Source: Oceanospirillum beijerinckii DSM 7166 (GTDB taxonomy: Bacteria; Pseudomonadota; Gammaproteobacteria; Pseudomonadales; Halomonadaceae). From it: 64,000 bases of DNA. The position numbers and the translations under genes are program-made. The stretch's first letter is position 1; every line of letters begins with the position of its first letter. The notes beneath the pieces are model-generated. The model worked only from the letters and a program-made list of their open reading frames with translations. It made no database searches and was not told the DNA's origin. The DNA lies in NCBI RefSeq assembly GCF_000422425.1, contig NZ_AULT01000024.1:1-64000 (forward strand). Direction: 5' to 3'. Positions 4,269-28,184 of this stretch are shown here, one piece after another.

Positions 4269-4784
4269 TCAGTGTCGTGTCACACTATCCTCTACACCCA
4301 CAGCAGGGCAATTTTCCAGCGCAAAGACCACAGGTTCAAATTCAGCTTTATTTTTAGGATTTAATCCCATCAGGATTCGATGAGCATCAATCACTTTTTG
4401 GCGCACACTCTCTGCACATTCATCCAGAATCGGCGCTTCCTGCATACAACACCCTAACTCAACCGGCTCCCTACAGATTTCAAAATAATGCTCAAAGCCC
4501 ATGGTTTCCAGAATATGAGTAATATCCGTACGGGTACTGATAATCGTAGGCTTATGATTTAACACACCTTTCGCATTAACGGCTATTTTTGCCAATAACC
4601 CTAATGCCGTACTGTCGATGCCGTCTGTTTCCGTCAGATCCACGACAACGGATTTTAATTCCCCACCAAAAATTCGCTTCAATAGAGAATCGATTGTGGA
4701 ACATAGTGTCAATCTAACATCGCCCATAAACTTCAGAACGTAAACATCCTGATTTTCGGCGACCATGATTTTACCATTTTGCAT
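4269..4784 (-). CDS. STAS-domain anti-sigma factor antagonist
   Basis: Residues about 10-105 form a STAS domain of the SpoIIAA/RssC type: VYVLKFMGDVRLTLCSTIDSLL, the VVVDLTETDGIDSTALGLLAKI segment with the phosphorylatable serine in DSTALG, then a helical second half ending GFEHYFEI. A C-terminal extension of about 60 residues has no recognised domain. It lies 32 bp downstream of a SpoIIE-type phosphatase on the same strand; this pair is the hallmark of partner-switching modules (RssB/RssC, GigA/GigB). By analogy the phosphatase dephosphorylates this protein, which then binds an anti-sigma factor. No anti-sigma kinase is encoded next to it. Confidence 0.88.
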   Translation of the reverse strand: MQNGKIMVAENQDVYVLKFMGDVRLTLCSTIDSLLKRIFGGELKSVVVDLTETDGIDSTALGLLAKIAVNAKGVLNHKPTIISTRTDITHILETMGFEHYFEICREPVELGCCMQEAPILDECAESVRQKVIDAHRILMGLNPKNKAEFEPVVFALENCPAVGVEDSVTRH

Positions 4785-4816
4785 AATTTAACAACCGGAA
4801 ATAGACAAACAACTGA

Positions 4817-5977
4817 CTACCCTTTTTTACCGGATATCGTCATTAAAGTGACATCATCAGGAGAATCTTCCATCCCCATCTGAGCAAACCACTCCACCAT
4901 CCCAGCGTGATCTCCTGCATACTGTTGAGCAATTTCCAACAGTGTAGTTTCTTTATCGGCCAGACTGCCGCTTTGCATTAACTCAAAAACACCATCAGAG
5001 AAAAGCGAGAGATAGTAGCTTGGCTGCAACAATAACTCAAATTCCTCGTAGACCGCATCGTCAAAAAGTCCTACGGGCATACCCTTACCTTCGATAAAAG
5101 CGGCCTTACCATCCCGAACTAATACAGGCGCTGGATATTGAGCACCGTTGCAATAACACATTTTATGATTCCCACCATCCAAGATGGCCAGGAAGATAGT
5201 GACATGTTTACCCAACTCGGTACCCAAAATCTCCTTATTCAACTCGGCCAAAATCGCTCCCGGGGAAATTTTGGCACCTCTGATTAACATACGGGTAACA
5301 AAACGCCGGATAAATACCCTCAAGAGGATAGTCAGGAAAGCAGAAGAAGCGCCATGACCAGACACATCTGCTAAATAAAAGAGCACTCGCTCACGATCCA
5401 TCGGGAAATAATCTACGAAGTCGCCACTCAAATATAAAGAGGGACATACTTTATGTTCAAAAGTCAGCGCCTGAAAATCCCACGGAGTTTGCGGCAACAT
5501 CTTCTGCTGCACATAACGTCCTGCCTGCTGGTCCTGCCTTAAGACATCCAGGCTGGTCATCAGTTCCAGATTAATCTGCTCCAGCTCTTCATAAGTTTGC
5601 CGTGCCTGTCGGGCATCCCGTCGTCGACTGACAACCCTATGGGCAACCAGAGAAACCAGATTCAGGTGTCGATTGGGGTCCAGCACATAATCATCTGCAC
5701 CAGCCTCCAGGCCCCGTACCACTAAACCGGCCTGCGAATCGTCAGCCAATAACAACACCGCATACTCTCGCTGAGAATCCAACCAGCGCTCAAGACGGAA
5801 CAGGTCTTGATGATCATTCAGATAAAAGATCACCAACTCACAAGCTTTTGACAGATCCTCTGGTACAGCGTCAGTAGCTAAAGACTCTACTGCCAAATCT
5901 ACATCCAGTAATTCAGCAAGATGCTCTATCTTACCCGGGCAGGGAATAAACACTGCATCTGCTATAGTTGAAAGCAT
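4817..5977 (-). CDS. Receiver-like/PP2C (SpoIIE-type) phosphatase, RssB/GigA-like
   Basis: 386 residues. Residues 1 to about 120 resemble a response-regulator receiver fold (ELVIFYL, YAVLLLADD, GLEAGADDYVLDP), followed by a helical linker (about 125-150) and a PP2C-type SpoIIE domain (about 165-386) with LSGDFVDYF, FYLADVSGHGASSAFL and LSLFSDGVFEL metal-site motifs. The receiver looks degenerate: the position expected for phospho-Asp reads YLND and the usual Lys before Pro reads LDP, so it may not be phosphorylated in the normal way. It is co-oriented with and just upstream of the STAS gene, its probable substrate. Confidence 0.88.
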   Translation of the reverse strand: MLSTIADAVFIPCPGKIEHLAELLDVDLAVESLATDAVPEDLSKACELVIFYLNDHQDLFRLERWLDSQREYAVLLLADDSQAGLVVRGLEAGADDYVLDPNRHLNLVSLVAHRVVSRRRDARQARQTYEELEQINLELMTSLDVLRQDQQAGRYVQQKMLPQTPWDFQALTFEHKVCPSLYLSGDFVDYFPMDRERVLFYLADVSGHGASSAFLTILLRVFIRRFVTRMLIRGAKISPGAILAELNKEILGTELGKHVTIFLAILDGGNHKMCYCNGAQYPAPVLVRDGKAAFIEGKGMPVGLFDDAVYEEFELLLQPSYYLSLFSDGVFELMQSGSLADKETTLLEIAQQYAGDHAGMVEWFAQMGMEDSPDDVTLMTISGKKG

Positions 5978-6118
5978 GGTCGCTTATCATCCTTATTCAG
6001 TACCTAAACCTAGTGTAATCCCTAGACTCACTTAGGGAAATATCGGGGAGACATACAACCCCAATTTATGCCATAGTAAGTGTAACAATTTGTAAGCTTA
6101 TGACTAAGAGTGATTGAT

Positions 6119-6415
6119 ATGGATTTTTTCTTACCCTTCAATGAAAAGCGTAAGTTCCCTCGAATTAAGGTAAACAGCCCGATAACCCTGGAAGAACAGG
6201 AGTCGGGTAAGACCTACGAAGCTCACTGCCTGGATCTTAGCGCTACTGGTAGCCGTGTTATTCTTGACGAACCACTGACTGTAAACACCCTGCTACGCAT
6301 CAAACTCTCCAGCCCGCTGGGTTTAGATCCTTTCTGCGCACTAGCCAGGGTTGTTTATAATAGTCTTGAATCAGGCCATGAAATTGGGCTGGAAATTACC
6401 GAGATATTGGATTGA
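6119..6415 (+). CDS. PilZ-domain protein (probable c-di-GMP receptor)
   Basis: A 98-residue single-domain PilZ protein. The two c-di-GMP motifs are visible: RxxxR in RKFPRIKV near the N-terminus and the DxSxxG type motif in LDLSATGSR. The remainder (LLRIKLSSPLGLDPFCALARVVY...GHEIGLEI) is the PilZ beta-barrel. I use the ATG at 6119, which has AAGAG at good spacing; a GTG at 6110 would add three residues. A GGDEF-EAL protein is encoded at 12.6-15.5 kb, so c-di-GMP signalling is active in this organism, but the target of this receptor cannot be read from context. Confidence 0.88.
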   Translation: MDFFLPFNEKRKFPRIKVNSPITLEEQESGKTYEAHCLDLSATGSRVILDEPLTVNTLLRIKLSSPLGLDPFCALARVVYNSLESGHEIGLEITEILD

Positions 6416-6627
6416 GCCCTCACACCAAATGATGCGAGAGCCAGCTCTTCCCATAAGTTAATACCACCACTATTATAAGCGGTGAAAGAAAACCCACACA
6501 CAATATAGTAAAAGGCTGATTTAGCGGTTTTAAAGGAGTTGTACACTACTGAATAAGCAAGAGAGTACAAAAAAATAAACCTCTGACGGGGTACCAGCCC
6601 AAGAAAACCAGCCTCCTTTACAGAGAG

Positions 6628-7350
6628 TTAAAGTGCTTCATCATCAAGATCCAGATCATCAAAGCCCGCATCAAATTTATCTTCAACCTGACCATCATTG
6701 ATCTGATAAGTACGGCTTTGCAAATACACATCCCGAATAAAACTGTACTTATCACCTTGAATGATGCCTTCACTATCCAGCAACTGATGCCTGATATGAA
6801 TCAGTTTTAACGCAGTAATACCGTAACGCTCATCTTCTTTCAAATCCGCATGATTCAACGGGTCCAACAGGTAATCTGGATATAAACTGAGACCATCACG
6901 AACATTACTTGGCCCCAATATCGGCAAAACCAGATAAGGGCCGCTCTCAACACCCCATACGGCCAGGGTTTGACCAAAGTCTTCGCTATGCTCTTCAATA
7001 TCCAGCATAGAAGCCACATCAATCAACCCCAGTAACCCAACAGTGCTGTTGATCAGAAAACGTCCTGCCGATGTTGCTGCTGCTCCTGGCTTGGCTTGTA
7101 GCAAATCGTTGGCCGCCGTCGGCACCTCTCCTAAATTACTGAAGAAATTACCTACACCACGGCGAATAAACGTCGGCACAACAGCCTTATAGCCCTTTGC
7201 TACCGGTTTGGCGACGTAACTGTCTACCGCTTCATTAAAGTAAAAAACTTTGCGGTTCCAATTTTCCCAGGGATCAACGTCTTCCACTGCCCAGGCAGAA
7301 TTTGCCCCTAATAGCAGAACCAGCATCAATGCCGGGATTATCTTGTTCAT
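6628..7350 (-). CDS. mlaA: MlaA (VacJ) family outer-membrane lipid asymmetry protein
   Basis: Outer-membrane component that, in the family, removes mislocalised phospholipids and passes them to MlaC. Core motifs: DPWENWNRKVFYFNEAVD, the GVGNFFSNLGEVPTAANDLLQ region, AGRFLINSTVGLLGLID and the SEDFGQTLAVWGV...GPYLVLPILGPS stretch. The C-terminus is strongly acidic (DDLDLDDEAL), as in many MlaA proteins. I prefer the start at 7350 (MNKIIPALML), giving a 240-residue precursor with a hydrophobic signal sequence; an upstream ATG at 7374 is possible. Oddity: no cysteine follows the signal sequence (LLLGANSAWAVED), so the usual lipobox is missing and signal peptidase I cleavage after AWA is suggested. 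Confidence 0.9.
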   Translation of the reverse strand: MNKIIPALMLVLLLGANSAWAVEDVDPWENWNRKVFYFNEAVDSYVAKPVAKGYKAVVPTFIRRGVGNFFSNLGEVPTAANDLLQAKPGAAATSAGRFLINSTVGLLGLIDVASMLDIEEHSEDFGQTLAVWGVESGPYLVLPILGPSNVRDGLSLYPDYLLDPLNHADLKEDERYGITALKLIHIRHQLLDSEGIIQGDKYSFIRDVYLQSRTYQINDGQVEDKFDAGFDDLDLDDEAL

Positions 7351-17887: not shown

Positions 17888-17918
17888 TATCATTTCTAAT
17901 AAATGCCTTGATATCCGA

Positions 17919-17935
17919 GTAGGTTGGATAAGCGA
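17919..17935 (+). repeat. Left part of interspersed repeat split by the Mu-like element
   Basis: GTAGGTTGGATAAGCGA matches the first 17 bases of an 85-bp intergenic repeat found whole at 32046-32130 (opposite orientation). The remainder continues at 28047-28115. Joining the parts with one copy of AAGCGA restores a collinear 86-bp repeat. Confidence 0.8.
17930..17935. repeat. Target-site duplication, left copy (AAGCGA)
   Basis: AAGCGA directly precedes the element's first TG and is repeated directly after the last CA at 28041-28046. A 5-bp duplication (AGCGA) cannot be fully excluded, but only the 6-bp reading leaves TG and CA termini. Confidence 0.8.
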
Positions 17936-17945
17936 TGTAGGGCCG

Positions 17946-17973
17946 CGAGATATTTCAGAATTATCAGCGAGAT
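17946..17973 (+). promoter_or_regulatory. Left-end transposase-binding sites (L1, L2)
   Basis: CGAGAT occurs at 17946-17951 and 17968-17973, exactly 22 bp apart and 11 and 33 bp from the terminus. This mirrors the tandem 22-bp MuA sites of Mu, whose core is CGAAA. The same hexamer occurs inverted at the right end. Confidence 0.65.
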
Positions 17974-18056
17974 AATTGGCGTTCAGAATTCTTCCGCATA
18001 GTGAAAGATACTTTCAAACAATACGGAAAAGGAACTGACTAGTAGGTTTGTATGGA

Positions 18057-18146
18057 AAGTAAGCAAGGGTGGGAGTCGAACCCACATAAAGGGGTCAGCT
18101 CTCACCGACCACCCCGTTTTACCGATCAACGTACACTTGCTTACTT
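18057..18146 (-). ncRNA. tRNA-like structure downstream of the capsid gene
   Basis: On the minus strand a 90-nt segment is closed by an 11-bp perfect stem (AAGTAAGCAAG with CTTGCTTACTT). Inside is a canonical T-arm (GTGGG, loop TTCGACT, CCCAC), a D-arm-like hairpin (CGTT, loop containing GG, AACG) and a third stem (GTCGG with CUGAC, one G-U pair) with a loop holding UGAGAG. It is not a clean tRNA: the acceptor stem is too long, extra bases sit before the D-arm, the anticodon loop has six bases and no CCA is encoded. It begins 18 bp after the gpT-like stop, in the same direction. Degenerate tRNA or a structural mimic are both possible. Confidence 0.55.
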
Positions 18147-18164
18147 CGATGGGGATTTTACAAC

Positions 18165-19058
18165 TTAATCCAGCCAAGGCACGACAAGAACTTCTACCGC
18201 ACCGTAGTTCGCATTACTTTCACCGTAGGCTTTTCTTTCAGCTTCAACAAGCTGCTTAGCCTGAATACGATTACTAGGACCGACTACAAGTAAACTAGGA
18301 ACAAGACCTAAAGGTCGGCCTTTGTCGGACTTCATTTCCGTAATCATGCTGTACGCCTGATTAAAGTTATCTTCTGTCAGATCTGATGTTGCACCAATGG
18401 CCTGCTGCCAAAACCCGAAACCAGCGTTCAGTCTAGCATCGACGCCATATAGATACTCATCGCTCAGAAACACATGATCAGAGGTTCCTGCATCTGTTTT
18501 AGCTTGTAATCTGTAGTCACGTCTGGTTTGTAAAATTAAAGGTTTCAGAGGACGTTTAGTGTCCAACAAAAACCATGGTGCACTGCTGCCCTGGATCAGG
18601 TTTGAAACAGCTTTCTGCTCTCCATCTGAACCTACCATATGGGAGTCATCAAAGAAATTTAGCCCATCATAGCAAGGTGTGGAGAAACCGTCCTTCAGCA
18701 ATGAAAATACAAGCTCATCAGGGTGAGTTGCTGCCGCATACCCCATATCTTCAAACTTAGGGGCCATAATGCCATAAGTATCATCTTCGATTCTTTCGGC
18801 TGGAATAGACTCAGTAGCTTCAAACTTGCGGTTACGAACAACATAGTTCGAAACTTTCATTCTATTAATCTGGCGATCACCGATCCATTCACGTAATCGG
18901 CTAAACTCGCCTAGCCAGCTGTAGTTCTCTTCCGACCCTGAAGACGGCACCTGAGTAGCAACTTTATGCCACAATGGTTGATAGCTGTCGCGCCCTTTAT
19001 TAAATGACGTATTAACAGCGGCATATAAAGATTGAAGTGCTTCTTTTGAAATATCCAT
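18165..19058 (-). CDS. Mu gpT-like major capsid protein
   Basis: 297 residues, close to Mu gpT (about 305). The order of motifs follows gpT: YSWLGEFSRLREWIGDRQI near the N-terminus, YVVRNRKFEATESI, RIEDDTYGIMAPKFEDMG, AAATHPDELVFSLLKDGF, CYDGLNFFDDSH, a WFLLDTKRPLKPLILQTRR strand, LYGVDARLNAGFGFWQQAIG and GLVPSLLVVGPS near the C-terminus. It would be the shell subunit of a Mu-type head. The frame is intact. It lies leftward of the repressor on the minus strand, whereas in Mu the T gene is far right on the other strand. It starts 12 bp after the coiled-coil gene, in scaffold-then-capsid order. No other head gene is present. Confidence 0.88.
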   Translation of the reverse strand: MDISKEALQSLYAAVNTSFNKGRDSYQPLWHKVATQVPSSGSEENYSWLGEFSRLREWIGDRQINRMKVSNYVVRNRKFEATESIPAERIEDDTYGIMAPKFEDMGYAAATHPDELVFSLLKDGFSTPCYDGLNFFDDSHMVGSDGEQKAVSNLIQGSSAPWFLLDTKRPLKPLILQTRRDYRLQAKTDAGTSDHVFLSDEYLYGVDARLNAGFGFWQQAIGATSDLTEDNFNQAYSMITEMKSDKGRPLGLVPSLLVVGPSNRIQAKQLVEAERKAYGESNANYGAVEVLVVPWLD

Positions 19059-19070
19059 TTGATATTTACC

Positions 19071-19637
19071 TTATTTAATTCCCATTTGTTCTAGTAACTG
19101 GTCTTGAGTGGCCGTAATGGCTTTTCTATCTAGCTCACCATACTTACTCTTGATTGGTTCTGATAAAAATCGAATAGACCAGCCAGGGTTCATACCATCG
19201 CCAGCGGCGATTATTTCTCTCAGCAAGTCCAGCAGATCACCGTCAAGCTGTAACTTTTTACAAAGCTGATTGTGTTTTTCTTTCCACAAATCCTTCAGAG
19301 CTTGATTAATAGCTTGTTGTTTGTTGTGAGCAGAAGAATTGAATACCTCTATTCTTTTCTCCAAATTGATAACCAGAAGCTCTGCATCTTCGAAGGTAGC
19401 CTCTGCTACCTTAAGAGCCTTTCGTATACCTTCAATATCCTCTATAGATACAGCCTCTCTTAGCTTGGACTGCTCAATAGATACACCATGCTGTGCTTTC
19501 CTTAGATGCTCTTGTGCTTCCGGTAGCTGCTTATCGGTAATTAAATCAATATCAGATTTCTCTTTTTCGAAAGATGATAGTAGATCTTTGTACTTACTGA
19601 TGCTTTCAGAAAGTAGCTGAGAAGTGTCCTTTGTCAT
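19071..19637 (-). CDS. Coiled-coil protein upstream of capsid gene (scaffold candidate)
   Basis: 188 residues, mostly charged helix from about 5 to 135 with heptad character (SESISKYKDLLSSFEKEKSD, RKALKVAEATFEDAELLVI), then a short more globular tail (IIAAGDGMNPGWSIRFLSEPI). There is no cysteine-rich or catalytic motif. AGGAG precedes the ATG by about 9 bases. Phage scaffolding proteins are typically small, helical, charged and encoded just before the major capsid gene, as here; this is a positional inference only. It could equally be a regulator or an inhibitor of another phage's assembly. Confidence 0.7.
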   Translation of the reverse strand: MTKDTSQLLSESISKYKDLLSSFEKEKSDIDLITDKQLPEAQEHLRKAQHGVSIEQSKLREAVSIEDIEGIRKALKVAEATFEDAELLVINLEKRIEVFNSSAHNKQQAINQALKDLWKEKHNQLCKKLQLDGDLLDLLREIIAAGDGMNPGWSIRFLSEPIKSKYGELDRKAITATQDQLLEQMGIK

Positions 19638-19697
19638 GATTTATGCTCCTAATAAATTTAAAAATAATAAGGGTGATATAGTCTTTAATAGATTGAT

Positions 19698-20363
19698 CTA
19701 GACAGCAGCACCATTAGGAGGTGCATGGTGTAATTCTCGTTGTTGCTCAATGATGCTATATACCCGCTGAGGTGTTAGCCCATATTCTTGAGCCAAGCTT
19801 CTTTGATTGAAGCCATCAAACGCCTGGTAAATCTTTATATTGCGTAATGCCCGCTGCAAACGATCGCTACGAGGCAAGTAAAATGCTCGACCGGATAGAT
19901 AGTTGGACAGGGCCTTACAAGCATCTTTTGCATGTGGATATGCAGCCTCCAGAGTGATGTCAAGGCTGCGAGCTAACTCGCCCTGAATAATAGATAAAAC
20001 AGCCATAAGAGTTTGCTGAGGAGGCAACCCACTCTCTTCTAAGTTGGCGCAAGTAGTCTCCTGATTAGCCTCAATATCACGAAAAGCTCGCTCTAACAGA
20101 CTACTACGAGGCAAGTAGATTTGCTTTCCCCCTAAACAGTGGGCAATTGCAACACAAGAATTCCGCGCATATGGGTATGCCGTATCTAGGGTGATATTGA
20201 GACTTCGAGCTAATTGATACTGTATAACGGATAAAAGATCAGCCAGTGCTTTCGGCCATACATTTGGAGTTCGATCTATAGCTTCAATATTGTTTAGAAT
20301 AGCGCTCAGCTCTGGATCTAAATCATCTAAACTATTTGTTGTATTTTCCTCACTTGAACTCAT
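19698..20363 (-). CDS. Mor-like transcription activator with duplicated core
   Basis: 221 residues using the ATG at 20363, which has AGGAAG at good spacing; an ATG at 20408 has none. Two similar units of about 63 residues (39-101 and 118-181) share the pattern QxxLARSLxITLxxAYPxA, then YLPRSxxLxRAxRxI. Only the second unit is followed by a helix-turn-helix (FNQRSLAQEYGLTPQRVYSII), which matches the C-terminus of the Mor/C family. A normal one-unit Mor-like protein is encoded at the element's other end. Because Mor acts as a dimer, the fusion may form a one-chain pseudo-dimer with a single DNA-reading head. It could activate the leftward capsid operon or interfere with a helper's activator. 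Confidence 0.75.
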   Translation of the reverse strand: MSSSEENTTNSLDDLDPELSAILNNIEAIDRTPNVWPKALADLLSVIQYQLARSLNITLDTAYPYARNSCVAIAHCLGGKQIYLPRSSLLERAFRDIEANQETTCANLEESGLPPQQTLMAVLSIIQGELARSLDITLEAAYPHAKDACKALSNYLSGRAFYLPRSDRLQRALRNIKIYQAFDGFNQRSLAQEYGLTPQRVYSIIEQQRELHHAPPNGAAV

Positions 20364-20503
20364 ATCTACTTCCTGTGAACGGGCTTTGTGTAACACAATC
20401 TTATTCATAGGTAGGTCACAGATCTTTTGAACAAGGTCAAAAAACAGGAGGCAATTGCGGAAAATATTTGCTGAATGGGCTAATAAGAGAGCAGAAGTGC
20501 AGA

Positions 20504-20527
20504 GTTGGCTATTATTCCATAGCCAAC
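20504..20527. terminator. 8-bp hairpin downstream of the basic protein gene
   Basis: GTTGGCTA and TAGCCAAC pair perfectly around an 8-nt loop. There is no long T-tract, so termination is possible but weak; attenuation between the repressor operon and the duplicated-Mor gene is an alternative. Confidence 0.4.
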
Positions 20528-20591
20528 CCTGATTTGTGAGTAAAGCATTTGTAAACTATATACCTTCCTCTAAATTGGAAGCAAGTTACTA

Positions 20592-21209
20592 TCAGATTGT
20601 CTTTTTCTTAGCAAAAATATATGTATAAGTGCGCTGTATCTCATCAGTCGATAACTCAGTAAGCGAGTCAGCTTTAAAATTCTTCTTAATGTATGGCTTG
20701 TATGCATTCGGATCGCCAAGTTGGTTCTTGCTTCGGGCTTTGATTGCTCCTATACGCTTTGCTCTCCACTGGTCATCTTTTGCTGGGGCTGATTTCATAT
20801 TACGCAGTTGGCCCATTTCTTTCTTAATAAACGCGACAACCTTTTTAAATTTTGCTTGTGGGATCATCGCATATTTTGTTACTCCACCGGTTTTATTAAT
20901 TCTGGACCAGGCTGCACCATAAGTTAGTGGTCGTTTCTTTATGCTGTTATGTAATGCAACCCACTCATCGCATAAAGATTTAATTTCTGCCTTCTGTTGT
21001 TCTGAGATTTCGTTAGGCCCAGGATTTAGTACAACAACCTCTTTTACCTTCTTATTTTCCGGTGGTGTGGTTTGAATATGAATATCACCCTGATTGCCAA
21101 TGATGTTGGTGCCACCAAATATACTATGAACATTGTTTGAAGGTGCTTCTGTTGTATTGATATCCCTACCAGCCGCACTCCCTTCCGGTGCTTCGATTTT
21201 CTTAGTCAT
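20592..21209 (-). CDS. Basic phage protein with ORF6C-like C-terminal region
   Basis: 205 residues from the ATG at 21209, which has AAAGGA upstream and follows the repressor stop by 4 bp. Residues about 12-48 are a low-complexity Gly/Asn stretch (SAAGRDINTTE, then GGTNIIGNQGDIHI). Residues about 75-130 (LCDEWVALHNSIKKRPLTYG ... GGVTKYAMIPQAKFKKVVAF) resemble the conserved C-terminal region seen in phage antirepressor-type proteins. The tail is rich in Lys and Arg. The AAGRD motif also ends the neighbouring repressor. A partner or antagonist of the repressor is a reasonable guess, but I do not recognise the family with certainty. Confidence 0.55.
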   Translation of the reverse strand: MTKKIEAPEGSAAGRDINTTEAPSNNVHSIFGGTNIIGNQGDIHIQTTPPENKKVKEVVVLNPGPNEISEQQKAEIKSLCDEWVALHNSIKKRPLTYGAAWSRINKTGGVTKYAMIPQAKFKKVVAFIKKEMGQLRNMKSAPAKDDQWRAKRIGAIKARSKNQLGDPNAYKPYIKKNFKADSLTELSTDEIQRTYTYIFAKKKTI

Positions 21210-21213
21210 TCCT

Positions 21214-21621
21214 TTATCCTTTCTTTTTGATAAACATATCACGCCCTGCGGCATGTCCATTAGAAGCGTTAACCGTCACGCTATTTCCTTGCTCACTTTC
21301 ATCTGATTCCAGTTCACCAGTTAATAGGGATGCCAGCATTTTTTTTCTCTGAGCCATTGGTAATGTCCGGTACGCATCAACCAACATTTGTTCATCTGCT
21401 GCTAGAGATGGAGGTAGATCGGCCTGATTCTTTTTGCCTGTAACTACATAGGTTATGTCCATTCCAAACTCAGCAAAAAGTTCTAGTTGGGCTGCTGTAG
21501 GAGATGACGCCCCCTTCTCCCATTCAATAATAGTGCGCTTCTTAGTGCCTACGATTTCACCCATAGCAGGCTGTGTTAAACCCAGACGCAGCCTTTCTTC
21601 CTTAAAACGTTGTCCTAACAT
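21214..21621 (-). CDS. Cro/C1-type (XRE) phage repressor
   Basis: 135 residues. The N-terminal helix-turn-helix (FKEERLRLGLTQPAMGEIVGTKKRTIIEWEKGASSPT) and a following MDITYVVTG segment are typical of short XRE repressors; a helical part and a tail ending NGHAAGRDMFIKKKG follow. There is no peptidase (LexA-like) domain. I use the ATG at 21621 because it has GGTGAG upstream; a longer frame to 21681 would run into the operator region. It is divergent from the Ner-like gene, the standard lysogeny-switch layout of Mu-like phages, so it probably represses the early rightward promoter. Confidence 0.82.
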   Translation of the reverse strand: MLGQRFKEERLRLGLTQPAMGEIVGTKKRTIIEWEKGASSPTAAQLELFAEFGMDITYVVTGKKNQADLPPSLAADEQMLVDAYRTLPMAQRKKMLASLLTGELESDESEQGNSVTVNASNGHAAGRDMFIKKKG

Positions 21622-21686
21622 GCAGATATTCTCACCAAAATAATTGACAGGTGCAGAAATATGCACCAATATATAACTCAAGACAA

Positions 21687-21703
21687 CGCCTTATACACAG
21701 GCG
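21687..21703. promoter_or_regulatory. Inverted repeat in the repressor/ner switch region
   Basis: CGCCT and AGGCG flank a 7-nt TATACAC spacer between the divergent repressor and Ner-like genes. The size and place fit an operator for the repressor or Ner. No promoter boxes are clear enough to call. Confidence 0.5.
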
Positions 21704-21742
21704 GTTATCAACCTAAATAATTAAGTAAAAGGATAACAAAGC

Positions 21743-21991
21743 ATGCACCCAGAAGAAATCAAAGCATCTTTACGTATTCATGGGTTTACCCAGGCAATGT
21801 TAGCCGATGAATTACAAGTCGCTCAGTCATCAGTACACCAGGCTATCTGTGGGAGTATCCGCAGCCAACGCATTCAGTCTCGTATCAGCGAGATCCTTGG
21901 GAAGTCAGTGAAAGATATTTGGCCGTACCAAGTCATTATTCGCCGTAGTCAGGCACAGATTCAGGCTCAAAAGGCCAAAGCTAAAGGGTAG
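21743..21991 (+). CDS. ner: Ner-like DNA-binding protein
   Basis: 82 residues. HPEEIKASLRIHGFTQAMLADELQVAQSSVHQAI is a helix-turn-helix of the Ner/Nlp (SfsB) type, with the family's closing VKDIWP element. In Mu, Ner is the first early gene and turns down both the repressor and early promoters. It is the first rightward gene after the switch region, with AAAGGA upstream. A basic tail (QAQIQAQKAKAKG) follows. The next gene carries a second, related Ner domain. Confidence 0.82.
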   Translation: MHPEEIKASLRIHGFTQAMLADELQVAQSSVHQAICGSIRSQRIQSRISEILGKSVKDIWPYQVIIRRSQAQIQAQKAKAKG

Positions 21992-21996
21992 CAATC

Positions 21997-22428
21997 ATGA
22001 CTATCGGTGAACGTCTAAAAGAAGTGCGTGAGGCTTTGGGTATGACTCAAGAGGAACTAGGTAATAAATGTGGTGTGACAATGCGTTCCCAAAGAAATTA
22101 TGAAAGAGGGAAACAGCAGCCTGACGCGCAGTACCTGAAAGAAATAGCGTTGCTGGAAATTGATGTCGCTTACATCCTAACAGGCGAAAAGAAGGAAGCA
22201 CCTATCACCGGGATGCACCCTGAGCAAATTAAAGCAGATATCCGAATAGCAGGTACCACACCAGCAAAAATTGCTGAAGAGTTGGGTGTTACACGATCAA
22301 CCGTTTCCCAGGTTATTCATGGCCGAGGGACTTCTGAACGCATTCAACAATACATTAGTGAAGTTATTGATAAACCGGTGTCGTTAATTTGGGCACCGAG
22401 AGAATTGCTAGCCCGGAAATATAAGTAA
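21997..22428 (+). CDS. Repressor-Ner fusion protein
   Basis: 143 residues in two parts. Residues 1-65 are an XRE-type helix-turn-helix (IGERLKEVREALGMTQEELG ... YERGKQQPD ... VAYILTG), similar in plan to the divergent repressor, including the D-x-x-Y-x-x-TG end. Residues 73-133 (MHPEQIKADIRIAGTTPAKI ... SEVIDKPVSLIWAP) are a Ner-type domain closely paralleling the preceding Ner-like protein, including its first residues MHPEQIKA versus MHPEEIKA. The gene looks like a fusion of repressor-like and Ner-like domains after duplication. It starts 5 bp after the previous gene. It may act as a switch protein bridging two operator types; the role is inferred. Confidence 0.8.
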   Translation: MTIGERLKEVREALGMTQEELGNKCGVTMRSQRNYERGKQQPDAQYLKEIALLEIDVAYILTGEKKEAPITGMHPEQIKADIRIAGTTPAKIAEELGVTRSTVSQVIHGRGTSERIQQYISEVIDKPVSLIWAPRELLARKYK

Positions 22429-22499
22429 CTCAGCGCCTTTTCCAATAGATGGGAAAAGCTCCCTTTTAAGAGTACCCATACAGCTTAGGAAGCATTCTT

Positions 22500-22985
22500 A
22501 TGAACAAGAAACTACGCAACTGGGCCATTTATCAAGCATTTAATGGCAACAACTTAGAAGAAGTAGCGCAGGCCTTTGATGTTAGCAGGGATAAGGTGAC
22601 TTGGGTTGCAAGTCAGCCTGCACCCAAGAAGCCAAAAAACTTCAGTGAGCAGGATGCTACACAAGTCACTCAGGCTATCTTCGATGCTAAAGCGCCTGCA
22701 AATAAGCAGCCTGAGAGCCTGCAAATTATGGATGCGCTGAAAGGGCACGTGCTATCTGGCTTAGCACTGGATGATTTAACCCGTCAGCTGGATATGGCAC
22801 CAAGCACTGTCATCCATTATTTAACCATGCTTACAGGCGCAGGAATGGTCACCCAGTTGGAAGATGGCAATTACGCGCTGAGTGTACGCACGCTGCAAAT
22901 AGCACAGGCCTATTCCAATGAAATGATCAAGGCTTCAAATCGTATCAACACACTATCACAGCAAGTCGTTGCTGGTCGCTTTTAA
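22500..22985 (+). CDS. Early-region helix-turn-helix protein
   Basis: 161 residues. The first about 35 (NWAIYQAFNGNNLEEVAQAF DVSRDKV, read through) resemble the C-terminal HTH of Mor-type activators. Residues about 75-130 (DALKGHVLSGLALDDLTRQL and following VIHYLTMLTGAGMVTQLEDG) form a winged-helix-like domain as in IclR-type regulators. Mu-like phages of the B3/D3112 type carry similar regulators between ner and the transposase gene. It begins about 70 bp after the fusion gene and is followed 12 bp later by the next gene. The family is not named with certainty. Confidence 0.65.
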   Translation: MNKKLRNWAIYQAFNGNNLEEVAQAFDVSRDKVTWVASQPAPKKPKNFSEQDATQVTQAIFDAKAPANKQPESLQIMDALKGHVLSGLALDDLTRQLDMAPSTVIHYLTMLTGAGMVTQLEDGNYALSVRTLQIAQAYSNEMIKASNRINTLSQQVVAGRF

Positions 22986-22997
22986 AGGGTAAATAGC

Positions 22998-23987
22998 ATG
23001 ACAAAAGAACACGCAAACCAAGACGTACTGACCGAACTTCAGAATCAAGCTTCAGCAATGCAAAGCCAGTACGGTAAAGAAAGAGATGTCGTAAATCAGC
23101 TGTTAGGCCAAGCCCAAATGGCCGACTCAATTGCTAAGTTTACCTCGACAGTCGCGATTTCAAAGATGGCTTTTGTTAAGGAAAACAAGCTGTACAAAGG
23201 GCTTCACGGAATGAAAGGGCTCGACGGTCGCGATTTAAGTGGTACATGGGAAGAGTTTTGTAAGCTGCTTGGCACATCTGCTGCCAAGGTGAATGAGGAT
23301 ATTCACAACCTACAATCTTTTGGTGAAGAAGCTTTGGAGTCGATGGGGCGTATGGGGATTGGCTACCGTGAAATGCGCCAATATCGCAGGCTTCCTGAAG
23401 ATCAAAAAGCGGCACTTTTAGAGGTCGCCAAAGATGGGGATAAGGAGTCATTTGTCGAACTGGCAGAGGAAGTTATCAGCAAGCATACGAAAGAGAAAGA
23501 GCAGCTGACAAAAGATCTGGAAGAGTCAAGGGCAGATTATGATGCGCTTGACGCAGTAAACAACACTAACTCTATGAAGCTGGAAGAAACCAAGCTGGAG
23601 TTAGAGCGCACCAAACAACGAATTAAGAAAATGAAACCAGATGAAGCCATTAAGGAGATACGGCAGGAAGTCAGCAGTGCAGCCTATGAAGCTGAAGTCT
23701 CGGTAATGAGTGGGCTACGCAAATCGTTTGAAGCACTGAGTGAGCAATCTGATGTTAGCGAAACCGATGAGCGTGCTTTTATGTCGGGCCTGCTGGATAC
23801 GTTGGAGAAAGAGATTATTGCTCTGAGGGAAGACTTCAGCCTACCCAGTCTTGGTGCGGGTGATATTAACTGGATGAACCCTGATGCACTGGCAGAGGCT
23901 GAGGCTCGGTTAGGTGTCGGTCAGGGAACCAGTGGAAGCGATAGCTTTGAAGACAAGGAGCCGTCTGATGAGTCCCGCGATAGCTGA
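22998..23987 (+). CDS. Coiled-coil early protein upstream of transposase
   Basis: 329 residues. The N-terminal half contains a compact region (KENKLYKGLHGMKGLDGRDL, GTWEEFCKLLGTS, YREMRQYRRLPEDQKAALLE) of a type found in phage and plasmid DNA-binding proteins. Residues about 150-215 are a strong coiled coil, and the tail is acidic and Ser-rich (GSDSFEDKEPSDESRDS). Its end overlaps the transposase start by 20 bp, so the two are translationally coupled. It may be an accessory factor for replication or transposition. I do not recognise a specific family. Confidence 0.55.
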   Translation: MTKEHANQDVLTELQNQASAMQSQYGKERDVVNQLLGQAQMADSIAKFTSTVAISKMAFVKENKLYKGLHGMKGLDGRDLSGTWEEFCKLLGTSAAKVNEDIHNLQSFGEEALESMGRMGIGYREMRQYRRLPEDQKAALLEVAKDGDKESFVELAEEVISKHTKEKEQLTKDLEESRADYDALDAVNNTNSMKLEETKLELERTKQRIKKMKPDEAIKEIRQEVSSAAYEAEVSVMSGLRKSFEALSEQSDVSETDERAFMSGLLDTLEKEIIALREDFSLPSLGAGDINWMNPDALAEAEARLGVGQGTSGSDSFEDKEPSDESRDS

Positions 23988-25743
23988 GGTAGTCATGGCC
24001 GCTGTTAGGGCAGCAGAACAGATGGGGCATGGTGGCAAAGGTGAAATTTATGAAAAAGCTCGTCTGCAATTGGGTATTTCTCCCGCTCAGTTTTACCGTT
24101 ATCGGAAGGAATTAACAGTGGAACTCAAGACACGCAAACAACGTAAAGATGCCGGTCAAAGCTGGTTAACCCGTGAAGAAGCGTTGACGATCAGTGGCGT
24201 ATTAATGGAGACCCTGCGTAAAAACAATCGCCAGATGGGTAGTCTGGTTCAGATGGTTAAGGCTTTGCGCAAAGACGGCAAGATCCGTGCTGAGCGGCTG
24301 GATAAAAATACGGGTGAGCTGATCCCTTTATCTGAAAGCGCTATCAGCCGCGCTTTACGTAGCTACGGCTTGCATCCTGATCAATTATTACAGCCTACGG
24401 GGCATAGCACTATGGGGTCCCTGCATCCTAATCATGTTTGGCAAATTGATGCTTCTTTGTGCGTACTTTATTACCTGAAGCCAAACAAGAGAACAGGTAA
24501 CGGGCTGCATGTTATGGAACGAGATAAGTTCTATAAAAACAAGCCTGCAAACTTGAAAAAGATTATGGCGGATAGGGTTTGGTCTTATGAGATCACGGAC
24601 CATACAACCGGGTGGCTTTATGTCGAGTATGTAATGGGTGCTGAGTCTGGGGAAAATCTGTGCTCTGTGTTAATCAATGCGATGCAGGAGCGCGGCGGTG
24701 CTGACCTGATGCACGGTGTGCCCAAGGTGCTTTATATGGACCCTGGTAGCGCGAATACCAGTGCCATGGCGAAGAACCTTTGTAAGGCTTTAAAGATTGA
24801 TGCAATAGCACATGCCCCTGGCAATGCCCGTGCAACTGGTCAGGTGGAGAATGCCCGGAAACTGATTGAGGAGCATTTTGAATTTGGGCTGAAGTTTCGC
24901 CCTGTCGCTGATCTGGAAGAACTGAATAAGCTGGCGGTTCAATGGCGCTCGGTCTGGAATGCTTCTCAGAAGCACCGTAGACACGGCCTGACGCGTTCTG
25001 AGGCTTGGTTAAAGATCAAGGAACATGAGCTGGTGAAGGCTCCTACAGTGGAAGAGTGCCGTAGTTTAGCAATTTCAGGGCCGGTTGAGCGTAAGGTCAA
25101 TGCTGGTCATTACGGCCATTACATTAGCCTGGATGGTGAAGATTACGATGTTTCACATCTGGACATTGAGACAGGCCAGAAGATTCAGGTTGCTCGTAAT
25201 CCACTGGGTAACAAAACCGCATACGCTTTGATGTTGGATGAGAACGGGCATGAGATTCGTCATGAGCTGGCACTGATTGTGAAAAATGAATGGGGCTTCC
25301 CTGTGGAAGGACCGATTCTGGGTGAGAGCTTTAAAGCACCTGCTGAAACTACAGGCCAGAAGGCGAGGAAAGAAATTGAACAGCTCATGACTGAAACTGA
25401 TTCAGTGACTGACGCTGAGCAAGCCCGTAAGAAAAAGGCAATCCCTATGGGTGGAAGCTTTGATCCATACAAAGGTTTGGATGATGCGAAGCTGCCGACT
25501 TATATGCCACGTAAAGGCACTGAGCATGGGCTGAAGATGCCTTCCGTTGAAGCGCAGCTTCTAACCACGACTCAGATTGCAATGCGCTTACGCAGCCGTA
25601 TGGGAGCTGATTGGAAACCTGAGTTCTTTGCTTGGTTGGAACAGCGCCACCCGGACGGTGTTCAAGAATCGCAACTCGGTAGTTTAGAGGAGCAATTGAG
25701 AAAGCCTCACGCGATGGCATTAAAAGTCATTAACGGAGGTTAG
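23968..25743 (+). CDS. MuA-like DDE transposase
   Basis: 591 residues from the ATG at 23968, which has AAGGAG six bases upstream; an earlier GTG at 23914 is less likely. An N-terminal DNA-binding region (SPAQFYRYRKELTVELKTRK) leads to a retroviral-integrase-type core: D161 in VWQIDASLC, D258 in LYMDPGSANTS and E294 in RATGQVENARK, giving a D-x35-E spacing. HRRHGLTRSEAWL and a C-terminal beta-barrel plus helical tail (about 430-591) follow, as in Mu/D3112/B3 transposases, where the tail contacts MuB. It would bind the CGAGAT sites at both ends and carry out replicative transposition. All catalytic residues are intact. Confidence 0.9.
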   Translation: MSPAIAEVVMAAVRAAEQMGHGGKGEIYEKARLQLGISPAQFYRYRKELTVELKTRKQRKDAGQSWLTREEALTISGVLMETLRKNNRQMGSLVQMVKALRKDGKIRAERLDKNTGELIPLSESAISRALRSYGLHPDQLLQPTGHSTMGSLHPNHVWQIDASLCVLYYLKPNKRTGNGLHVMERDKFYKNKPANLKKIMADRVWSYEITDHTTGWLYVEYVMGAESGENLCSVLINAMQERGGADLMHGVPKVLYMDPGSANTSAMAKNLCKALKIDAIAHAPGNARATGQVENARKLIEEHFEFGLKFRPVADLEELNKLAVQWRSVWNASQKHRRHGLTRSEAWLKIKEHELVKAPTVEECRSLAISGPVERKVNAGHYGHYISLDGEDYDVSHLDIETGQKIQVARNPLGNKTAYALMLDENGHEIRHELALIVKNEWGFPVEGPILGESFKAPAETTGQKARKEIEQLMTETDSVTDAEQARKKKAIPMGGSFDPYKGLDDAKLPTYMPRKGTEHGLKMPSVEAQLLTTTQIAMRLRSRMGADWKPEFFAWLEQRHPDGVQESQLGSLEEQLRKPHAMALKVINGG

Positions 25744-25747
25744 ACCG

Positions 25748-26899
25748 ATGTTAATACTGAAAAGTGTAATGGCAGGCTTAGGGCTGAAGCAGGCCTCACT
25801 AGCTAGAGTGCTGGATCTATCACCGGCGGCTATGTCGCAGATTATCAACCATGATCTATGGCCTAAATCATTCAATAAGAGTGATCTGCAAAGTAGGACT
25901 ATGAGCTGGCTGGAAGATAAAGGCGCTCAACCGGAACAACTGAAAACTGTGTTTGAAATGGCAGGGCTGTCGCAAGCAACCCTACCTACTTCAAAGAAGC
26001 AATCCCTGGAAAAGGACGACGTTATGTTACTACGAAAACAGCATCTAACACAAAAGGCACGTCAAACCTTCAAGTTGACACGAGATCCGTTTATGGACCC
26101 CAGATCATCGGAAGAAGTTTTCATGACGCCTGATGCCCGTTATGTGCGTGAGTCCATGAGAGCTGCAGCCAGGCATGGTGGCTTTATCGCTGTGGTTGGT
26201 GAGTCTGGTTCTGGCAAGTCGACCTTGCGCAAAGATCTGGCGGAATGGGCTCGTGAGGAACAAAAGCCCATCATCATGATTGAGCCTTACGTATTGGGTA
26301 TGGAAGACAATGATATTAAGGGCAAGACGCTCAAGGCGCGCAATATTGCAGAGGCTATTCTGGCGGAGTTGGTTCCACACGAAAAACCTAAGCGCAGTCA
26401 GGATGCTTTCTACCGCCAGCTTCATGAAGCTTTACGGGAATCTCATCGTGCCGGTAATCGACACTTGCTGGTGATTGAAGAGGCTCAAGGCCTTTCCATT
26501 CCAACGTTAAAACATTTGAAGCGTTTTTTTGAACTGGAGGAAGGTTTTTCCAGATTACTAAGCATTATCCTGATCGGCCAAACAGAACTGGGACAGAAAC
26601 TGGATGAGCGTAACCCTTCTGTTCGTGAGGTAGTGCAACGCTGTGAAGTCGTTAATCTGCGCCCACTGGATGCAGAATTAGAAAATTATCTGCACCACCG
26701 TTTTGCAATGGCAAATCGTTCTTTGGTGGAGCTTATGGGAGATGAGGCTATTCAAGCCTTACGCCAGAAGCTATCAGGTCGCGGCAATCACTCCGTACTG
26801 TATCCCCTTGCGATACACAATGTGGTTACTGCTGCTCTGAATGAGGCGGCTGAAATTGGTCTGCCAAAGTTGAACTCAGATTTGATCCTTGAGGTGTAG
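25748..26899 (+). CDS. MuB-like AAA+ target-selection ATPase
   Basis: 383 residues. The N-terminus carries a repressor-like HTH (GLKQASLARVLDLSPAAMSQII), as MuB does. The AAA+ core has Walker A from about residue 151 (GESGSGKST), Walker B with E244/E245 (HLLVIEEAQG) and sensor-type IILIGQTELG. In Mu, MuB polymerises on DNA, selects targets, gives immunity to self-insertion and activates the transposase. It begins 4 bp after the transposase stop, so the two are co-translated. Length exceeds Mu B (312) by an insert after the HTH. Confidence 0.9.
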   Translation: MLILKSVMAGLGLKQASLARVLDLSPAAMSQIINHDLWPKSFNKSDLQSRTMSWLEDKGAQPEQLKTVFEMAGLSQATLPTSKKQSLEKDDVMLLRKQHLTQKARQTFKLTRDPFMDPRSSEEVFMTPDARYVRESMRAAARHGGFIAVVGESGSGKSTLRKDLAEWAREEQKPIIMIEPYVLGMEDNDIKGKTLKARNIAEAILAELVPHEKPKRSQDAFYRQLHEALRESHRAGNRHLLVIEEAQGLSIPTLKHLKRFFELEEGFSRLLSIILIGQTELGQKLDERNPSVREVVQRCEVVNLRPLDAELENYLHHRFAMANRSLVELMGDEAIQALRQKLSGRGNHSVLYPLAIHNVVTAALNEAAEIGLPKLNSDLILEV

Positions 26900-26901
26900 A
26901 C

Positions 26902-27120
26902 ATGGCGATTGACTACGACTTAAACGCACTTCTTTCTGATGACACTCAGCAAATGGTTCATCTGACGTTACAGCAAGGTCAGTTTTCAGCAATCTTTGAG
27001 CAGTCTGTGAGTAGTAGGTATTGGGGGATGGCTGCTGTTGATTCTGCCATTAGCCAAGCTTTTTCAGAACTAACAGCAGATAAGGACGATGGTCTGATAT
27101 GTCGATCTGAAAGAGCCTGA
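26902..27120 (+). CDS. Small early protein, unknown
   Basis: 72 residues, acidic, starting 2 bp after the MuB-like stop (MAIDYDLNALLSDDTQQMVH). No family is recognised. The frame ends at 27120, but the following frame (27137-27250) reads as a plausible continuation, so a frameshift in a once longer gene is possible. Confidence 0.5.
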   Translation: MAIDYDLNALLSDDTQQMVHLTLQQGQFSAIFEQSVSSRYWGMAAVDSAISQAFSELTADKDDGLICRSERA

Positions 27121-27136
27121 CGGCTTTCCTCTAAGA

Positions 27137-27250
27137 ATGAAGGATGATGCAAAGCTCGGTGAAGCATGGCTCAGAAGCATGATCATCAAGGCTGAGATTG
27201 TAGATGTGCGGCGGGAAGAGTCATCAGAGAAGGGTAAGGGAGAAAGCTAA
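27137..27250 (+). CDS. Possible 37-residue ORF coupled to the next gene
   Basis: From the ATG at 27137 the frame reads KDDAKLGEAW, a short hydrophobic patch (SMIIKAEIVDV) and a charged tail to a TAA at 27248-27250 that overlaps the next ATG (TAATG). The overlap suggests that this frame is translated. The same frame is open upstream to a TGA near 27096, so it may instead be the shifted C-terminus of the preceding gene. Confidence 0.4.
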   Translation: MKDDAKLGEAWLRSMIIKAEIVDVRREESSEKGKGES

Positions 27251-27504
27251 TGTCCACTCTGAACGAACCACAGCAGCCAATCAGGATCGTTATTGAAATA
27301 ACCCAAAGTGATAACGGTGTTGTAAATGCTGACCTGGACTACAGCAGCAATGATGAAAAAGACCTCAAGCTGAAACAGGTTGGCTATGCACTAACGATGG
27401 CTCTGGGTACAACTGTTTTACCAGGTGTAATCCCGATGATCGTGAATGAGATAGATCATCCCACAAATGATGCAGAGCATAGCGAAAACGCCATCTCGCA
27501 TTAA
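27250..27504 (+). CDS. Small early protein, unknown
   Basis: 84 residues. A beta-strand-like opening (IRIVIEITQSDNGVV) is followed by a hydrophobic helix (VGYALTMALGTTVLPGVIPMIV). The start overlaps the previous stop. No recognised family; gam-type or kil-type functions occupy this place in Mu, but nothing in the sequence supports either. Confidence 0.5.
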   Translation: MSTLNEPQQPIRIVIEITQSDNGVVNADLDYSSNDEKDLKLKQVGYALTMALGTTVLPGVIPMIVNEIDHPTNDAEHSENAISH

Positions 27505-27525
27505 ACAAGACAATCAAGAGCTTTA

Positions 27526-27543
27526 GGGGCTGATTGCAGCCCC
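27526..27543. promoter_or_regulatory. Hairpin before the mor-like gene
   Basis: GGGGCTG and CAGCCCC pair around ATTG. It lies between the early gene block and the mor-like gene, about 45 bp before its start. No T-tract follows, so a regulatory or weak terminator role is possible. Confidence 0.4.
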
Positions 27544-27589
27544 TTCAACAAAGTTACTGCTAAAAGCAAAAGGCACTGGAGATAAGAAG

Positions 27590-27937
27590 ATGACGATGGA
27601 AGAAAGGAGACATGAGCTACTGGCCGACACCGCTCAGCAGACAGAGGAACTGTTAAAGCTATATGGCATTGATGAAAGCATCGCTGATCAAGTAGGCTGT
27701 GCTGTGGCTGATCATTTAGCTAATCACTGGGGAGGTCAACTTATCAACATCCCCAAAGATTACCAGTACAAACTTGCCAATCGCGATTTAGAGATCTGGA
27801 ATGACTTCACTGGTAGCAACCATGCTCAGCTGGCGAAGAAATATAAACTTAGTACCAGAGCGATATATAAGATCATTAAGCGGGTCAAAGAAAGGCAGAG
27901 TGCAGCAGATCAGCCAGGCTTATTCGATGTTTCGTAA
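27590..27937 (+). CDS. mor: Mor-family middle transcription activator
   Basis: 115 residues with the Mor architecture: an N-terminal helical dimerisation region (LLADTAQQTEELLKLYGIDE), the strand segment GGQLINIPKDYQYKL, and a C-terminal HTH (DFTGSNHAQLAKKYKLSTRAIYKIIK). In Mu, Mor switches on the middle operon, which leads to late gene expression. Here nothing lies downstream except the transposon end, so its target must be elsewhere: the element's leftward capsid operon or a helper phage. GGAGATAAGAAG precedes the ATG. Confidence 0.85.
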   Translation: MTMEERRHELLADTAQQTEELLKLYGIDESIADQVGCAVADHLANHWGGQLINIPKDYQYKLANRDLEIWNDFTGSNHAQLAKKYKLSTRAIYKIIKRVKERQSAADQPGLFDVS

Positions 27938-27980
27938 TTTGAAAGAGTCTTTCAGATTTGATCCCACTAAATCCCGGTTA

Positions 27981-28007
27981 ATCTCGTCTAATCCCGGATT
28001 TATCTCG
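27981..28007 (-). promoter_or_regulatory. Right-end transposase-binding sites (R2, R3)
   Basis: ATCTCG (inverse of CGAGAT) lies at 27981-27986 and 28002-28007, 21 bp apart, each preceded by a TCCCGG direct repeat. Counted from the right terminus they start at 34 and 55, in register with the left-end pair; a degenerate outermost site (TGATAA) may occupy position 11. Confidence 0.65.
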
Positions 28008-28040
28008 CAAAACCATTATTATTTTTATCACCCCCTAACA

Positions 28041-28046
28041 AAGCGA
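28041..28046. repeat. Target-site duplication, right copy (AAGCGA)
   Basis: Directly follows the terminal CA at 28040 and equals the left copy at 17930-17935. Confidence 0.8.
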
Positions 28047-28117
28047 AGCGCCATCCGACACTGACACTGACTCTCGGTTATTGTCGGAAGGCGCCTTGCG
28101 GCTTTTCCGACCTACAA
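28041..28117 (+). repeat. Right part of interspersed repeat split by the element
   Basis: From AAGCGAAGCGCCATCCGACA to the end GCTTTTCCGACCTAC this continues the repeat begun at 17919. It is built of two hairpin-like units (GGATAAGCGAAGCGCCATCC and a TCGGAAGGCGCC...TTTTCCGA unit). The insertion point is at the tip of the first hairpin. Confidence 0.75.
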
Positions 28118-28184
28118 CAACTTATCTTGATTGGTATTAGCGATAAGAGTAGAAAAAATGGTACAAAACAGCAGGCACAAAAAA

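Follow-up and report, generated by a model that had tools for sequence, protein, structure and literature searches.

Introduction

The redirection of helper phage heads by a satellite-borne capsid protein has been demonstrated for SaPIbov5, whose Ccm protein, according to the accessible part of PMC8569155, forms the pentamers of small heads, with the helper protein forming the hexamers, and yields no capsids alone. Ccm is a homologue of the major capsid protein of the helper and can enter the helper's shells and alter their size. Helical satellite proteins that set head size have also been described, namely CpmB and Rcm of SaPIs (PMC12409344, in its available sections) as well as Sid of P4 and TcaP of PLE (PMC10945586, likewise in part). 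They are satellite-encoded and largely helical, and they act on the capsid protein of the helper, which they steer into small shells. Capsid-forming PICIs and the Streptomyces satellites MulchRoom and MiniFlayer encode their own capsid protein as part of a whole set of head and packaging genes (PMC10690885, in the portion accessible). No satellite with Mu-type transposition was found in a literature search that covered mostly papers outside subscription. The accessible part of a 2024 review of satellite families (PMC11389934) presents no Mu-type one, and another helper-satellite pair is reported in PMC4936722, the available text of which describes no Mu-type transposition.

Here, we describe an element of Oceanospirillum beijerinckii DSM 7166, located in a 64-kb window (the whole stretch of 64,000 nucleotides that was analysed), which carries genes for MuA and MuB, for the Mu-type major capsid protein gpT and, next to the latter, for a charged helical protein of 188 aa. 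By analogy, Ccm may be regarded as its closest functional precedent, and the element likewise carries a capsid homologue without other head genes, for which the helper is only a candidate. However, Ccm is 24% identical to the helper protein and has a delta domain (PMC8569155, same part), whereas gpT of the element shares 69% identity with a prophage gpT and lies beside a gene for a helical protein. Redirection is demonstrated for Ccm, whereas the element is known from sequence alone, and SaPIbov5 is a PICI of Gram-positive hosts, whereas the element would move by MuA/MuB. The hallmarks of PICIs are a tyrosine integrase and a PICI-type replication module. The element has MuA/MuB instead, and no integrase or primase family was recognised in its 13 scanned proteins, save for weak P-loop matches of MuB. 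In contrast to capsid-forming PICIs, MulchRoom and MiniFlayer, it contains gpT only and no complete set of head and packaging genes. The 188-aa protein may play a role such as that of CpmB, Rcm, Sid or TcaP; none of these four was named by the family and structure-database searches.

Genomic location and gene content of the element

The aligned flanks of the insertion site lie about 150-340 bp apart in all five other species of the genus and about 10.6 kb apart here. The initial annotation had given the element a length of 10.1 kb, which is plausible as a size, although the ends are not fixed: two inverted similarities compete, a weak one at the candidate ends (17914-17933 and 28101-28120, 14/20) and a shorter but better one (18002-18018 and 27938-27954), and there is no convincing target duplication, for which MuA would be expected to leave 5 bp, a coincidence of CTTGA (5-6 bases) being at chance level. 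The element is known from one genome only. Its features are as follows.

17914..28120, no strand: the element, approximate extent (inverted similarity and comparison of flanks with five other species; ends not fixed)
18056..18147, minus strand: tRNA-like cloverleaf that lacks an anticodon loop, in the stretch from gpT to the element end (-38.2 kcal/mol, z -4.45)
18165..19058, minus strand: gpT, Mu-type major capsid protein, 297 aa, full length (PF10124, E 4.5e-110)
19071..19637, minus strand: charged helical orphan of 188 aa, candidate scaffold or capsid-size factor (composition and position; weak coiled-coil-like matches only)
19698..20408, minus strand: tandemly duplicated Mor-type late transcription activator, 236 aa (PF08765, E 2e-28)
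20592..21260, minus strand: 222-aa protein, phrog_17822, of unknown function (E 9.4e-30)
21214..21681, minus strand: HTH repressor-like protein, 155 aa (HTH_3; relatives in 105 of the compared loci)
21743..22428, plus strand: two small HTH regulators of 82 and 143 aa (HTH and phage-repressor families; both with relatives in other MuA loci)
22500..23987, plus strand: transcriptional regulator of 161 aa (phrog_1368) and 329-aa phrog_4623 protein (PHROG matches)
23914..25743, plus strand: MuA-type transposase (phrog_310, E 2.5e-112)
25748..26899, plus strand: MuB-type transposition ATPase (phrog_296, E 6.1e-72)
27590..27937, plus strand: Mor-type activator at the end of the early operon (PF08765, E 5.3e-38)

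The genes fall into a leftward set (repressor, 222-aa protein, tandemly duplicated Mor-type activator, 188-aa gene and gpT) and a rightward set (regulators, 329-aa protein, MuA, MuB, small genes and Mor). MuA keeps 57 of 58 near-invariant positions, MuB 37 of 38 and the 329-aa protein all 15. The 236-aa activator consists of two halves in one chain, which are 45% identical over 85 residues, unlike the shorter Mor relatives that precede lysis and terminase genes in the phage loci L034 and L037. No Mor2 was found in the viral contigs. Behind MuB, at 26902-27250, a 72-aa frame (26902-27120) stops where another frame opens without a start; the small gene at this place is possibly broken or frameshifted, and neither part has a relative among the compared loci. 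A promoter scan was uninformative (8 found, 9.2 expected), and no packaging signal was identified.

The cloverleaf at 18056-18147 has a 12-bp acceptor-like stem, a D arm and a T arm with a tRNA-like loop, and a GAGA tetraloop in place of the anticodon. Its stability was matched by none of 200 shuffles. ARAGORN reported no tRNA here, and Rfam gave a hit to the T arm only, below threshold. The structure occurs once in the genome, scanning the compared loci for it revealed no other place, and its pattern of T arm and acceptor had no match in the viral contigs.

A capsid gene without other recognised head genes

The capsid gene had been called a lone one in the initial annotation, and the comparisons bear this out. 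gpT is the sole head or tail family in the 13 element proteins scanned (the 72-aa frame at 26902-27120 lay outside the scan), none of the element's genes was recognised as one for portal, terminase, protease or tail, and out of 18 proteins of Vibrio phage ZX4290 only gpT and Mor matched the 64-kb window at E up to 0.01.

Sixty-six gpT loci were compared, made up of 61, most with 1.5 kb on each side, and five beside MuA. A Mu-type protease gene lies near gpT in 63 of them (58 of the first 61 and all five beside MuA), and the profile of a small head protein was found in 49 (45 and four, respectively). Both profiles were built from relatives beside the same gpT loci, a few of which are duplicates, and their labels were confirmed by two reference proteins each (PF10123/phrog_328 for the protease, phrog_1731 'virion structural protein' for the small protein); we read the small protein as a decoration protein. 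Three loci are without the protease. In L014 the contig ends 478 bases upstream and the small head protein is present, L216 holds a gpT fragment of 214 residues, and the third is the element, the only one of the 66 loci with a full-length gpT and available upstream sequence yet no protease. The gene order in the gpT relatives begins with the protease (PF10123, Mu I protein), followed in most by the small head protein (phrog_1731) and then gpT. The classical order of scaffold and shell genes, to which the gene pair had been likened, is thus not close for this family, in which a small virion protein rather than a scaffold directly precedes gpT in most cases.

Relatives of gpT were found in 21 of 275 genomes of the family, 23 of 390 of the order and 10 of 369 of the class (overlapping sets, each of which includes the element's own genome), and in 57 plasmid records, all below 60% identity. 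Leftward sequence of at least 9.5 kb was available for 114 MuA loci, of which 107 have a hit to at least one terminase-region or head protein there, in a test spanning only about 10 kb around MuA. Two of the other seven have the hit on the other side (L100, L124), two have a protease match (L171, L183), and L071, L115 and L133 are likewise without a leftward terminase-region or head hit; none of the seven has a gpT hit. Five loci with both MuA and gpT (L131, L150, L162, L178 and L185) were considered as sister elements and rejected because all of them have protease, terminase and portal hits. No sister element was seen among the gpT-positive genomes of family, order and class, in the genome searches with the 188-aa protein or among the examined MuA loci.

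Two arrangements in these loci deserve mention in their own right. In L150, L178, L185, L162 and L131, terminase and portal hits lie on one side of the early region and those of protease and gpT on the other, which may reflect either split late operons or neighbouring prophages. In L115, an Iodobacter prophage region, two large leftward frames of 845 and 586 aa (2876-7170) lie past the repressor, where late genes would be expected; they are possible cargo or defence genes.

Sequence conservation of gpT

The match of gpT to its family covers the full length, with residues 8-296 aligned to positions 1-289 of the 289 in the PF10124 profile (E 4.5e-110). The match to phrog_371 reaches E 3.7e-113, and among solved structures the capsids 8rkc (E 1.2e-70) and 9jod (E 6.7e-65) are clear relatives. 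The closest gpT found are those of a prophage in another species of the genus (genome G005; 69% identity) and of ZX4290 (63%).

In an alignment of 50 sequences, from which six loci aligning over only part of gpT were left out, none of the 23 columns invariant in the other 49 sequences is changed in gpT of the element. Of 38 columns conserved at 95%, it misses two, as does G005 gpT (2/38), and of 59 conserved at 90% it misses eight, the second most of the 50 sequences (G005, 6/56; ZX4290, 4/55). With ZX4290 as reference, 43 lineage-specific changes were counted for the element and 15 for G005 (Tajima chi-square 13.5, p 2.4e-4). These values suggest a capsid protein with a kept core and accelerated change outside it, owing either to a new role or to partly relaxed selection, and the constraint may date from before the capture of the gene. 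No dN/dS value was obtained, as synonymous sites were saturated. As a separate observation, the loci L217, L218, L219, L220, L237, L238 and L239 contain frames of about 300 residues in which the reported hit to gpT is confined to the first 145-155, which suggests capsid proteins whose second half was swapped or has diverged strongly.

The 188-aa helical protein

The 188-aa gene had been placed 12 bp before the gpT-like gene, and both frames are indeed found on the minus strand with 12 bases between them. Scored with a codon-usage table built from six other genes of the element, the frame reaches +30.0, compared with -28.6 to -46.4 for the other five frames, and AGGAG stands 8 bases upstream of its ATG. 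Its length alone would be weak evidence for coding, since 8 of 200 simulated sequences of 10.2 kb contained a frame of at least 188 open codons. The codon usage and the ribosome-binding site mark the frame as a real gene.

Charged residues make up 32% of the protein, and its first two thirds are amphipathic-helical: a helical hydrophobic periodicity as strong as that of residues 1-125 occurred in 4 of 2000 shuffles (8 of 2000 for residues 1-62; 123 of 2000 for residues 63-128 alone). Residues 126-188 are without such periodicity, 1007 of 2000 shuffles being as strong. Structure prediction of the protein alone, one of the checks that the initial annotation had proposed, gave an AlphaFold model whose secondary structure is all helix; the mean pLDDT was only 46, so that the fold is not established.

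The protein had no Pfam match at E up to 0.1, two PHROG matches only (near E 0.05), and no relatives in the viral contigs or, at E up to 1, in phages. As a query it gave one other match in 146 relatives (18.8 bits) and two others in 369 genomes of the class, inside open frames of 695 and 1474 residues; these look like chance matches of coiled coils and were not counted as homologues. The best matches in the structure database, an anti-CRISPR protein (E 0.041) and Par (E 0.11), are too weak to carry meaning. A derivation from the Mu-type protease or the small head protein was rejected by profile comparison (hhalign probability about 0.1%), and no relation to PF10123 (I protein, protease-scaffold) was found with the alignment of 53 protease sequences (0.1%). 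With no relatives and a poor model, a role cannot be inferred from family membership, and the protein is a candidate scaffold by position, composition and analogy. Homologues with another function away from capsid genes, which would have spoken against this role, did not turn up, though only because no true homologue was found at all.

Origin of the element and candidate helpers

In the capsid tree, gpT of the element is sister to that of the G005 prophage (100/93), followed by ZX4290 (100/99). The tree holds 54 sequences, with the truncated L216 and the duplicates L007 and L010 left out and the capsid gene of JBD18 added; the latter was tried as a gpT relative and, given its very long branch, seems not to be one. 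In the MuA tree (50 rows, 38 of them different; of the MuA loci, only L031-L060 and L111-L126 were used), the element groups with L034 and L037 at 83/95, which is below the star threshold of the tree program, and stands on a long branch. The capsid of the L037 phage, which is near the element by MuA, is placed elsewhere in the capsid tree. BLAST gave no significant match between MuA of the element and a G005 MuA piece of 454 residues, the match to ZX4290 MuA spans 43 residues only (E 0.003), and DNA similarity to the G005 prophage is confined to 18165-19071 (blastn, E up to 0.1). The capsid tree, the MuA comparisons and the restriction of DNA similarity to gpT together indicate that gpT comes from another phage lineage than the transposition genes, and judging from these sequences the element is a chimaera, whose MuA goes with Beetrevirus-like phages and whose gpT goes with the G005/ZX4290 lineage.

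Both sides of this origin resemble the element in part. JBD18 and the IMG/VR phages L034 and L037, which are Beetrevirus-like, have MuA, MuB, regulators and divergent operons in common with it, and in L034 and L037 a Mor-type gene opens the late operon as well. However, JBD18 has full head and tail operons at the place that is occupied by just the 188-aa gene and gpT in the element, and in L034 and L037 lysis and terminase genes come next, gpT of the element being from another phage lineage. ZX4290 and the G005 prophage, in turn, differ from the element by a full head gene set, a very different MuA, a collinear gene order in the case of ZX4290, and a protease and a small head protein before gpT. 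The G005 prophage yielded matches for MuA, MuB, TerS, TerL, portal, minor head, protease, small head protein, gpT and tape measure. At the phage end, the ZX4290 record also has an annotated diversity-generating retroelement with Avd and reverse transcriptase (35288-36894; 34657-36263 in L030).

A phage of the G005/ZX4290 type is a plausible helper type within the genus. In the element's own genome, a search with TerL of the G005 prophage gave no match (one in the positive control G005), and there is no second gpT. Pfam searches of this genome for portal and protease gave no matches either and prove nothing, because the controls were also without a match.

Discussion

The element has the genes expected of a phage satellite, with MuA, MuB, repressor and Mor present and a complete set of virion genes absent; an autonomous transposable phage would have its own head, packaging and tail genes. 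It looks parasitic on larger phages because it has one shell gene with a rod-like neighbour and no other recognised head part. The assembly of a shell has been described for the related phage JBD30, where scaffold and capsid protein copolymerise on the portal and the protease cleaves the scaffold later (PMC11445458, accessible part). Judging from its recognised genes, the element cannot build a working head alone and therefore needs a helper. The initial annotation had proposed a self-encoded scaffold-capsid pair. There is good support for a satellite-like element that carries a capsid gene and, beside it, a helical one, whereas the self-sufficiency of this pair is unlikely, because portal, protease, terminase and tail are missing and Ccm alone forms no capsids (PMC8569155, in the part cited above). 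Co-assembly with helper heads is the likelier course.

The best-fitting explanation, to which we give close to even weight, is a transposable phage satellite that captured a helper-type capsid gene, whose product co-assembles into helper heads and shifts their size. MuA and MuB of the element would provide for its movement and replication, and its own repressor would silence it. During growth of a G005/ZX4290-type helper in the cell, the Mor-type activators would turn on the short leftward operon, from which the gpT variant would be made together with the helical protein of 188 aa. The former would join the helper shells, beside helper gpT or in its place, and the latter would serve as an extra scaffold in competition with that of the helper. 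Head assembly would thereby shift, most likely to smaller heads, which would be a better fit for an element of 10 kb and keep out the helper genome, while portal, protease, terminase and tail would be supplied by the helper. This explanation finds its basis in the intact main genes, in the chimaeric origin, in gpT as the sole stretch in common with a helper-type prophage, in the strictest gpT residues being kept while the lineage changes faster than that of G005, in the lack of any other recognised head gene, notably the protease, in a helper type within the genus and in the precedents of Ccm, CpmB, Rcm, Sid and TcaP. We infer induction, co-assembly, head size and transfer, the entry of gpT into heads from its similarity and the scaffold role from position and composition only. 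Occurrence in a single genome, the lack of a helper relative in that genome, the orphan nature and poor model of the 188-aa protein, the weaker gpT conservation at looser thresholds, a gpT constraint that may be older than the capture, the failure to identify a packaging signal and the possibly broken small gene behind MuB count against a satellite. The strictest form of the explanation, in which a satellite of a new kind, riding on Mu-type transposition, took exactly one capsid gene from a different lineage of transposable phages and added a scaffold of its own, both reprogramming helper heads to a small size, is rather doubtful.

A serious possibility is that the 188-aa gene has nothing to do with the capsid and encodes, for instance, a regulator or an anti-defence protein, so that gpT alone would act on helper heads in the manner of Ccm, which requires no other satellite protein (PMC8569155, as far as accessible). 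The protein has no homology to protease or small head proteins, and its residues 126-188, without helical periodicity, may be a separate domain; on the other hand, the gene lies on the same strand, 12 bp before gpT, and its product is charged, amphipathic and helical like satellite scaffolds. This alternative overlaps with our preferred explanation in everything except the role of the 188-aa protein, which is why the confidences given here sum to more than one.

It is unlikely, in our view, that the locus is a decaying or recently deleted Mu-like prophage in which Beetrevirus-like early genes and a ZX4290-like head had already been combined, with gpT and the 188-aa gene as functionless leftovers. 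The divergent layout, with the repressor in the middle, an early operon ending in Mor and the late genes opposite, is the plan of JBD18, and L034 and L037 match it down to the Mor-type gene that opens the late operon; the possibly broken gene near 27120, the 8 of 59 columns missed by gpT at 90% conservation and a genome without a helper would also suit decay. However, the 188-aa gene was not found in the compared parts of either candidate parent, similarity to the G005 prophage stops at gpT on both sides, and comparison with ZX4290, G005, L034 and L037 revealed no late-gene remnant except gpT and Mor. The reading frames of gpT, MuA and MuB are open, with the strictest residues kept. Simple decay of one prophage, the main alternative to a satellite, fits poorly and is weakened by the separate origin of gpT, the intact main genes and the orphan neighbour, but with a single copy in one genome it keeps some probability. 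Still less probable is a capsid poison, by which the gpT variant, with or without the 188-aa protein, would ruin helper heads and protect the host, and no small heads would be made. A full-length gpT near that of a plausible helper (69%) in an accelerated lineage, with no other structural gene recognised, would be compatible with such a poison, and a prophage-encoded inhibition of tail assembly is known from the Mu-like phage DMS3 (Tab; PMC10884400, accessible part). The same facts suit a redirection of head size, however, a separate scaffold-like protein would be needless for a pure poison, and MuA/MuB with two Mor genes point to a cycle of the element's own.

If the satellite with co-assembling gpT is real, capsid piracy would have arisen on a transposition-based life cycle too, and taking over a capsid gene of helper type, as SaPIbov5 did, would be a recurring route to parasitism. 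Mu-type packaging follows the headful principle. With an element of 10 kb, most of the space in a normal head would then be taken up by host DNA, so that a change in head size would strongly alter the amount of host DNA that is moved.
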